Shown here piece after piece: positions 22,141 through 23,986 of a stretch of 36,105 bases of DNA (position 1 is its first letter; every line of letters starts with the position of its first letter). The notes beneath the pieces are model-generated. The model saw nothing but the letters and a program-made list of their open reading frames with translations. It did no database searches and was not told the origin of the DNA. Origin of the DNA: Methanothrix sp. (lineage in GTDB: Archaea; Halobacteriota; Methanosarcinia; Methanotrichales; Methanotrichaceae); the NCBI GenBank assembly GCA_025361645.1, contig JANYKI010000124.1, positions 1 to 36,105 of the forward strand. Direction: 5' to 3'. Position numbers and translations under genes: made by a program.

Positions 22141-22599
22141 TCATCTGCTTTCTACTCTCTTTTTCTCATAGCTTTGATAATTATGCTGCGATACCGTCTC
22201 CTGCTCGAGGATCTCCATCAATCTGTACTGCCGGTTATTTCTATTCCCTCTCTTATCCAGCAGACCGTCGTGATTCATGCGAGATAGATAGGTGGAGACT
22301 GTGGAGAGCTTTATATCATCGGCTACGGTCTCATATTTCTCTCTTAATTCCTGGGTTGTGAACCAGGCATTGGTAAACTCATGTCGGATGAAGCTTTCCA
22401 GTCGGTCCATGAGCGTTCCGCTGCTATAATCACGAGCAGTTGTGGCTGATGCAATGCTATCCCCTCTGCCCTCAAAGACACCGGAAGCTGACAGAAAACC
22501 AATGATCCTGTCTCTTAAAGCCTCTCCATCCATGTTTTGCGACTCAAACTCATGGGAGGATTTAAGGCTCTTGTCTTCTATCTCTATCCGGATCCTCAT
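22141..22599 (-). CDS. winged-helix-like DNA-binding protein, unknown family
   Basis: 152 residues from ATG 22599. The N-terminal 45 residues (MRIRIEIEDKSLKSSHEFES) look like a small alpha/beta or dimerisation region. Residues 65-130 look like a winged helix: a helix with RLESFIRHEF, WFTTQELREKYETVADDIKL (turn and helix), a recognition-type helix STVSTYLSRMNHDGLLDKRG and a wing NRNNRQYRLMEIL. I infer a transcription regulator. It is preceded by a small gene 16 bp upstream on the same strand, and the DNA upstream of both contains repeated TGTGAAA motifs that it might bind. Family not recognised. Confidence 0.68.
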   Translation of the reverse strand: MRIRIEIEDKSLKSSHEFESQNMDGEALRDRIIGFLSASGVFEGRGDSIASATTARDYSSGTLMDRLESFIRHEFTNAWFTTQELREKYETVADDIKLSTVSTYLSRMNHDGLLDKRGNRNNRQYRLMEILEQETVSQHNYQSYEKKRVESR

Positions 22600-22615: not shown

Positions 22616-22849
22616 TCATCTTATCTTTAAAGAAGGAAGGAATATGCGTTGCATAGAGGAAGCTGCATCCCGGCTGGAGACAAAGCAGACATTTTCTGTC
22701 ATTGCTGCATTTTTAGGCAGCCTGGACCTCTCTAGGTTCATCTGCAACATAAATAATTTGATGTGCCCTCTCATAATTTCCCCCTCTTCATAGCCAACTA
22801 CTTTTATTCTCGTACCATCCCCAATTTTCGATAGGACTGTGAAAGACAT
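22616..22849 (-). CDS. small protein upstream of the winged-helix gene
   Basis: 77 residues from ATG 22849; GTG 22858 would add three. Sequence begins MSFTVLSKIGDGTRIKVVGY and continues EEGEIMRGHIKLFMLQMNLE, then a more polar tail. The start codon lies inside a perfect palindrome, CTGTGAAA (22837-22844) and TTTCACAG (22853-22860), which would suit autoregulation. It lies 16 bp before the winged-helix gene, so the two are likely cotranscribed. No family recognised; a small regulator or partner is a guess. Confidence 0.45.
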   Translation of the reverse strand: MSFTVLSKIGDGTRIKVVGYEEGEIMRGHIKLFMLQMNLERSRLPKNAAMTENVCFVSSRDAASSMQRIFLPSLKIR

Positions 22850-22860
22850 TGCTTTCACAG
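22837..22860. promoter_or_regulatory. palindrome ctgtgaaa-N8-tttcacag
   Basis: A perfect 8-bp inverted repeat with an 8-base spacer, covering the start codon of the small gene at 22849. It shares TGTGAAA with four other places between 23197 and 23675. Such symmetry fits a dimeric helix-turn-helix regulator. Confidence 0.5.
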
Positions 22861-22911
22861 CCTATTCAACTATTCATATCAGATCCCGTCTCAGCCGTTC
22901 CCTTTTGATCC

Positions 22912-23109
22912 TCACGGTCGTCCCTTCCCGACAACGAGGATTTCACCGGCCAAGTAATTCATCATCTGCATCAGGCCTGAGCTATTTTGTCGTCCCTTTC
23001 CGACAGTGAACAGTCTGTAGACAGATGCATTGTATACAGATCCGATATGATACTCCCTTTCGCTACCCCTTGTGCCATCTATGCGAGAAAGTGTATTGCT
23101 GTGAAGCAT
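22912..23109 (-). CDS. doubtful 65-residue protein
   Basis: An open frame from ATG 23109 to a stop at 22912. The translation is partly protein-like (SVYNASVYRLFTVGKGRQNS, later MMNYLAGEILVVGKGRP). It contains the VGKGR sequence twice because the DNA has a duplicated 17-mer (22917-22933, 22989-23005). No ribosome site. It might be a small gene of the same leftward unit, a decayed gene, or an artefact of repeated DNA. Other frames in 23109-23240 also contain short protein-like stretches, which suggests decay or frameshifts. Confidence 0.25.
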   Translation of the reverse strand: MLHSNTLSRIDGTRGSEREYHIGSVYNASVYRLFTVGKGRQNSSGLMQMMNYLAGEILVVGKGRP

Positions 23110-23198
23110 TTCGCCGGATACCGAAAATGCCTTTTAAGGCTTCGATTTCCCCCTTCATTGCTACCCCTCGTGCCATCCCTTACAGTGACGCTATGCTT

Positions 23199-23405
23199 TC
23201 ACAAAGGCGAACATTTTCCAGACGATGCAGCTCTTCCACAATTTTGTGGAATAAATAGAGCCGATACATCAGAGTTATCCACCCGATACGCTCCCCTTAC
23301 TGCGCTGATATATTGCCAAGGTCCATCCATCCCCTCAGACGAATAAGCCCTCTTTAGCCATCCTATCTCGATGTATTCAGACAGGTTGTCTGGCCATTCT
23401 GGCAC
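23199..23405 (-). CDS. small protein with leaderless promoter
   Basis: 68 residues from GTG 23405 (MPEWPDNLSEYIEIGWLKRA, then YSSEGMDGPWQYISAVRGAY, then a Cys-containing tail). The strongest support is its promoter: on the minus strand ggaaaggtttatatatc gives an excellent BRE plus TATA (plus 23428-23435) about 26 bp before the GTG, so the transcript should be leaderless. The sequence looks like a real folded domain but I recognise no family. In an overlapping frame near its end a helical stretch (YRLYLFHKIVEELHRLENVR) also looks coding, hinting at a frameshift or a nested gene. Confidence 0.5.
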   Translation of the reverse strand: MPEWPDNLSEYIEIGWLKRAYSSEGMDGPWQYISAVRGAYRVDNSDVSALFIPQNCGRAASSGKCSPL

Positions 23406-23425
23406 ACTATTAACCTATGTTTTGA

Positions 23426-23442
23426 GATATATAAACCTTTCC
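23426..23442 (-). promoter_or_regulatory. BRE/TATA promoter for the minus-strand small-gene unit
   Basis: Minus-strand ggaaaggtttatatatc combines a purine-rich BRE and a strong TATA box. The distance to GTG 23405 fits leaderless transcription. Two TTGTGAAA sites (23529-23536, 23573-23580) lie 95-170 bp upstream of the start. Confidence 0.65.
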
Positions 23443-23808
23443 AATAGTTGGTAGTTGTGGTCAATAGCTTAAAACTCATATTTAAAGTTATTTTTTGAAA
23501 TAAATCCCTAATAGTATTCAGAATAGTATTTCACAAGGTATGCTTAAGACAGGGAAAATGCATTATAATGTGTTGTGAAAAGAATTTTCGGGCGAATACT
23601 ATCATAATAATAGCTATCAGTAGGTCCTATGTTTGTGCGCGGAGGACCTAATGCCCTTGTGAAACCATTTCACAACGACCAACCGATGCGGAAATTATGG
23701 GAAAATTGCCCGAAAATCCGCCCTATTCTCAAAAAACATTGTGAATTAATGCGCGCGAAGTTGCCGCACCACATGCCCAGAAATTTAAATAAAGGAAAAT
23801 CAAATGAT
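23443..23808. other. AT-rich regulatory-looking intergenic region
   Basis: No credible gene in about 365 bases. It holds the direct repeat aatagtatt at about 23512 and 23522, TTTCACAA at 23529-23536, TTGTGAAA at 23573-23580, an 8-bp inverted repeat TAGGTCCT/AGGACCTA (23621-23628, 23643-23650) and the tight palindrome TTGTGAAA-cca-TTTCACAA (23657-23675). A plus-strand frame at 23629-23901 is not protein-like. Confidence 0.5.
23657..23675. promoter_or_regulatory. perfect palindrome ttgtgaaa-cca-tttcacaa
   Basis: Two 8-base arms with a 3-base spacer, the most symmetric of the repeated TGTGAAA sites. It lies between the divergent-looking 23405 promoter and the 40-residue gene at 23809-23931 and is a good operator candidate. 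Confidence 0.55.
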
Positions 23809-23931
23809 TCAAGACGCTTGACGAAGTTCGAAATATTCTTCTACAAGCCAGTCGCCGACCTCCTTAAGATACCTGCGCTTGCGTTCATCTTCGGCAATTA
23901 ATTGAAAAACCTCAGAAAGATCTTCATCCAT
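23809..23931 (-). CDS. 40-residue acidic helical protein
   Basis: ATG 23931 to TGA 23809-23811. The sequence MDEDLSEVFQLIAEDERKRR followed by YLKEVGDWLVEEYFELRQAS is a strongly amphipathic helix pair with good codon use. A TATA-like box on the minus strand (gtttaaatg, plus 23956-23964) lies about 29 bp upstream, so the mRNA would be nearly leaderless. It is the length of many small methanogen proteins that are overlooked in annotation. Function unknown; it might bind a partner protein through the helices. Confidence 0.6.
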   Translation of the reverse strand: MDEDLSEVFQLIAEDERKRRYLKEVGDWLVEEYFELRQAS

Positions 23932-23986
23932 TGAACACGTGTTATCCACTTACGGCATTTAAACTTATCGAAAGGCCGTTAGAACC

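Follow-up and report, generated by a model that had tools for sequence, protein, structure and literature searches.

Conserved promoter-distal boxes and a predicted leader RNA hairpin upstream of a winged-helix gene of Methanothrix

FL11 of Pyrococcus horikoshii, a protein of the Lrp/FFRP type, has been crystallised with a 13-bp palindrome as its DNA (PMC2995911). Like the operators of FL11, the Methanothrix locus that we describe here has a 13-bp palindrome, and its control region holds repeated sites, but it differs in having no regulon in the genome, in the distal position of its sites and in the lack of an adjoining Lrp gene. The locus also shares TGTGA/TCACA arms with the sites of CRP/FNR (TGTGA-N6-TCACA), although its spacers are of 7 and 12 bases rather than 6, and its host is an archaeon. 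L7Ae-bound k-turn leaders are found in archaeal mRNAs (PMC5539422), and our locus resembles them in that its leader hairpin, a possible k-loop, has CUGA opposite a GAUGR strand; the controlled gene, however, is not that of L7Ae. Moreover, CUGA (box D) is present in the hairpin, but the opposite strand, GGGAUGR, matches box C (RUGAUGA) only in part, so L7Ae is a lead and not a finding. As in riboswitches and other cis-regulatory leader RNAs, the leader of the locus is structured, conserved and associated with a single gene family; the difference is that the hairpin described here has no match in Rfam. Archaeal oriC with Orc1/Cdc6 likewise combines repeats with a winged-helix protein, but our locus does not lie beside orc1/cdc6 and its winged-helix protein is not Orc1/Cdc6. 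To our knowledge, very little is known about gene control in Methanothrix, a main acetate-using methane producer, and structured leader RNAs have rarely been documented in archaea.

The window (the whole stretch of DNA analysed, 36,105 bases) contains TGTGAAA or TTTCACA seven times, all within 837 bp. These 7-mers begin at 22838, 22853, 23197, 23529, 23574, 23658 and 23668, exactly as given in a preliminary description of this DNA, and there are no others in the window. As was also reported there, five of the seven extend to TTGTGAAA/TTTCACAA, and both CTGTGAAA-N8-TTTCACAG (22837-22860) and TTGTGAAA-N3-TTTCACAA (23657-23675) are exact inverted repeats. About 0.013 copies of TTGTGAAA are expected in 479 bp and five are observed, so the cluster is not a product of chance. 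Genome-wide, TTGTGAAA has 65 copies in 2.43 Mb, against 45 for the reversed control. TGTGAAA-N0-12-TTTCACA occurs in two places in the 2.43-Mb genome, both at the locus, while the reversed control gives 0. In the near-complete sister genome G004, the 1.2 Mb sampled (40%) held 87 TGTGAAA, with a maximum of 3 per 840 bp. Counted across the genome, the palindromic pairs to which attention had been drawn are thus found only at the locus, and the clustering of the boxes is far beyond chance.

Conservation of the sites was judged against 60 relatives. Syntenic DNA matches to the region were found in most Methanotrichaceae genomes searched (relatives including Methanothrix/Methanosaeta). The expectation that the sites would be conserved at orthologous loci held for those at 23529, 23574, 23658 and 23668; those at 22838, 22853 and 23197 are present in close relatives only. 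In oriented loci and alignments, the four core boxes keep their sequence, orientation and spacing across Methanotrichaceae, in most species, and on this comparison we regard them as old sites. The distal palindrome, TTGTGAAA-CCA-TTTCACAA (23657-23675, unstranded), is unique in the genome, and its paired columns show almost no variation among 21 aligned sequences. The middle half-site TTGTGAAA (23573-23580, plus strand; TTTTCACAA on the minus strand) has TTTTCA invariant in 21 sequences and stands 44-46 bp, in 18 loci, from the proximal half-site TTGTGAAA (23529-23536, minus strand; TTTCACAA on the other strand). Repeats AATAGTATT/GAATACTAT flank the half-sites and make a larger dyad with them (23508-23600, unstranded) that is conserved in most of 21 aligned rows.

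The remaining sites are of a different kind. The second palindrome, CTGTGAAA-N8-TTTCACAG (22837-22860, unstranded), is real and is common only to the nearest genome, G021. It had been proposed to be an operator over a start codon; the palindrome, however, lacks conservation, and the start codon beneath it is that of an N-terminal extension in which 20 of 21 relatives carry a frameshift; the ORF that is conserved begins at 22774. The isolated TTGTGAAA inside the leader (23197-23204, minus strand) is also limited to close relatives. Three of the seven sites, therefore, lack wide conservation, as might be expected if the boxes were a chance cluster or a decayed repeat. We find such an explanation barely credible in view of the density of the boxes, their genome-wide uniqueness and the four sites kept in many species; for those four, a chance origin is ruled out by the genome-wide counts and the conservation.

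We found TGTGAA-N5-TTCACA in 22 Methanotrichaceae genomes, in every case at the orthologous locus. There is one extra copy, in G006, and in G016 the motif lies on a second contig, which continues the locus. Since the palindrome is essentially absent outside the locus, the boxes are best read as a dedicated, single-locus control region and not as part of a regulon, which the locus-specificity of the motif rules out. The same counts bear on the resemblance to FL11. The 13-bp palindrome TGAAANNNTTTCA at 23660-23672 is of the FL11 type and contains TGAAA-N3-TTTCA, which we take to be the FL11 site consensus. The boxes could, on these grounds, be sites of a global, FL11-like Lrp/FFRP regulator, with the locus being only its strongest target. 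A global regulator should, however, have many sites, and the genome has 3 copies of TGAAA-N3-TTTCA and 4 of its reversed control. The longer palindrome, furthermore, is locus-specific in 22 genomes, and a Pfam search found no Lrp domain in the neighbouring winged-helix protein. We therefore hold a global Lrp/FFRP regulator to be unlikely. A literature search for the FL11 consensus string gave no match.

Alignment folding of 23480-23720 beats column shuffles on both strands (z -6.8 for the minus strand and -4.8 for the plus strand), which raises the idea that the boxes form stems in a longer structured RNA whose transcription begins further upstream. The fold signal, however, comes from near-invariant inverted repeats: compensatory changes over the boxes were found in 0 of 17 predicted pairs (21 sequences), most pairs being invariant. 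A conserved promoter also lies downstream of the boxes, and we consider it very unlikely that they are RNA stems. Arms without covariation are what is expected of DNA sites, and the boxes would accord with DNA sites of dyad symmetry rather than with stems of an RNA.

The promoter in question (23428-23442, minus strand) consists of a BRE-like GGAAAGG and a TATA box, TTTATATA, the latter kept in all genera aligned. The distal palindrome had been described as lying between promoters; only one conserved promoter was found, and it is on the minus strand. Upstream of the TATA box, the boxes stand at a distance of about 100-240 bp; most described archaeal operators are closer to it than that, which counts against a role in the control of this promoter. 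From the proximal TTCACA to the TATA box (counted, in the window, from TATATAAA at 23428) the distance is 100-102 bp in 7 of 8 genera sampled and 110 bp in G029. Comparison of the aligned sequences shows the boxes, their spacing from one another and from the TATA box, and the promoter to be under selection across Methanotrichaceae.

Transcription from this promoter would start near 23403, giving a long non-coding leader of about 630 nt (22775-23405, minus strand) within which ORFs are not conserved. The region had been taken for a stretch of small genes, which is wrong for most of it, as frameshifts and stops in relatives show. The ORF at 22912-23109 is frameshifted in 19 of 20 relatives and that at 23199-23405 in 19 of 21; the ORF at 23629-23901 and the N-terminal part of 22616-22858 have frameshifts or early stops in relatives. 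Being broken in this way, they are not genes. The 52-aa ORF at 22616-22774 (minus strand; MRGHIKLFMLQMN...), 16 bp before the winged-helix gene, stays open over 90% or more of its length in 20 of the 21 relatives, and its N-terminus is conserved. The simplest reading is, then, that one minus-strand transcript would comprise the leader from about 23403, the 52-aa ORF and the winged-helix gene. We also noted a 46-aa ORF at 23809-23949 of the window (minus strand), whose DNA is about 80% conserved. It is on other contigs in the Methanothrix genomes G012, G014, G015, G017 and G025, and so may move separately from the control region.

The most noteworthy result is an RNA hairpin in the leader (23310-23352, minus strand; core UCUGAGGGGAUGGAUGG at 23323-23339), which is conserved upstream of winged-helix orthologues and is absent from Rfam. 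It is the most conserved feature of the region, and was missing from the features listed in the preliminary description. The minus strand of 23280-23425 folds better than column-shuffled alignments (z -5.5), and the hairpin has an invariant purine loop and the core UCUGAGGGGAUGRAUGG. We searched for the core as UCUGAGGGGRURRAURR in 61 and 192 genomes and compared the positions of the 112 copies with those of winged-helix genes. Within the class, 105 of the 112 copies are at most 1 kb upstream of winged-helix orthologues, in 63 genomes of three families: Methanotrichaceae, f3 (probably Methanosarcinaceae, a name that we infer) and a third family, f6. Methanosarcinaceae usually have two tandem copies, and in f3 and f6 the hairpin is close to the start codon. 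The genera with the largest genomes, g18 and g19, have neither the winged-helix protein nor the hairpin motif, and so provide a natural control. Comparison shows the predicted leader to be non-coding and to contain a class-wide hairpin at one gene family; the locus pairs a conserved promoter array with this hairpin, which marks the winged-helix gene in three families. In f3 (L113-L119, L207-L217) a TTCACA preceding the first hairpin is able to pair with a TGTGAA that follows it, and in that family these letters may therefore form an RNA stem.

Covariation in the hairpin is modest. In its outer stem, one position has A-U, U-A or G-U pairs and the adjoining one C-G or A-U pairs; pairing is better between native flanks than between shuffled ones (p 0.0095, from a shuffle that ignores relatedness). 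The invariant core suggests a specific binding partner. No Rfam family scored above its gathering threshold for the hairpin or the region, the sole weak match being CRISPR-DR50 at 23492-23537 (21.3 bits against a cut-off of 47). A literature search for the RNA core gave no match in the relevant papers, and the main text of a Methanolobus start-site paper has no passage on a winged-helix gene.

That gene (22141-22599, minus strand) encodes a protein of 152 aa, single-copy in most Methanosarcinia genomes. It had been called winged-helix-like from the DNA letters, and an AlphaFold model and its Foldseek neighbours agree. In the model, a short beta-beta-alpha domain at the N-terminus precedes a winged helix (HTH plus wing), with a mean pLDDT of 72 overall and block means of 84-92 in the winged-helix part; the Foldseek neighbours are ZitR and Fur-type proteins, marginal at E about 5e-3. 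The protein has no match among solved-structure sequences and none in NCBIfam, and its Pfam match to Cdc6_C is below threshold (E 6e-4; 20.2 bits against a cut-off of 25.1). In f6 (L198, L202, L204) the N-terminal MRSRLEITT domain of the protein appears duplicated.

The weak Cdc6_C match of the neighbouring protein, together with the single-copy, AT-rich character of the region and its repeated dyads, is what one might see at a replication origin or another chromosome-maintenance site. In G004, however, the orc1/cdc6 genes are at 1.31 and 1.44 Mb, about 0.9-1.05 Mb from the locus (0.38 Mb), and the core of the region keeps a fixed distance from the TATA box. GC skew in G004 (40% sampled; weak and irregular) has no extreme near 382 kb. 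An origin or maintenance site is, in our view, highly improbable.

We think it probable that, instead, the distal promoter array and the leader hairpin govern one minus-strand unit ending in the winged-helix gene. The four conserved TTGTGAAA boxes would be DNA binding sites in the distal promoter region, where a dedicated protein may bind the half-sites cooperatively and shape transcription from a distance. Of the original proposal of a regulator plus its operators, this retains sites that are non-random, conserved and in the promoter region of the winged-helix unit, and gives up the operator at 22838. Because the motif is confined to the winged-helix locus, autoregulation is the most economical candidate: the winged-helix product would bind the boxes of its own gene. 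We advance this tentatively, at somewhat less than even confidence; otherwise another DNA-binding protein would do so. Methanotrichaceae and Methanosarcinaceae share an invariant recognition segment, STVSTYLSRM, and the f3 (Methanosarcinaceae) orthologues with the same segment are without the box array, which makes the case for winged-helix binding weaker.

The leader hairpin, for its part, is more likely a site of post-initiation control. It would control the mRNA after initiation, and is probably a site, near the ribosome entry region, to which a protein or an RNA binds. In a bolder form, the two parts would exert two-level control: an undescribed array would work at a distance of 100-240 bp from the TATA box, hairpins of a new family, UCUGAGGGG, would be bound either by the regulator itself or by a general RNA-binding protein, and stand-alone copies of the hairpin would act in trans. 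We regard this as speculative and rather unlikely; if true, it would place a class-wide archaeal regulator under two undescribed control parts.

The leader also contains conserved repeats, all on the minus strand: GATGGCACGAGGGGTAGC (copy 1, 23160-23177) and GATGGCACAAGGGGTAGC (copy 2, 23062-23079), and TGTCGGAAAGGGACGAC (copy 1, 22989-23005; copy 2, 22917-22933). These two pairs, GATGGCACRAGGGGTAGC and TGTCGGRAAGGGACGAC, occupy 22917-23177 of the window and have purine-rich centres, like the hairpin loop. A decayed CRISPR array (two repeats 72 bp apart) was considered and set aside, as there are only two copies. Stand-alone UCUGAGGGGAUGRAUG cores were seen in L227 at about 1925-2010 (G041), in L228 (G130) and in L229 at 2045-2190 (G013), shortly 3' of the stop codons of unrelated genes. 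Each is set in a strong outer stem (AAGGUUGG...CCAACCUU in G041/G130), and these copies may be 3' UTR elements or small RNAs. Finally, G027 (C59, C154) has the whole unit in two divergent copies, both with the winged-helix gene and the palindrome; its two copies of TGTGAA-N5-TTCACA lie beside the two winged-helix genes.
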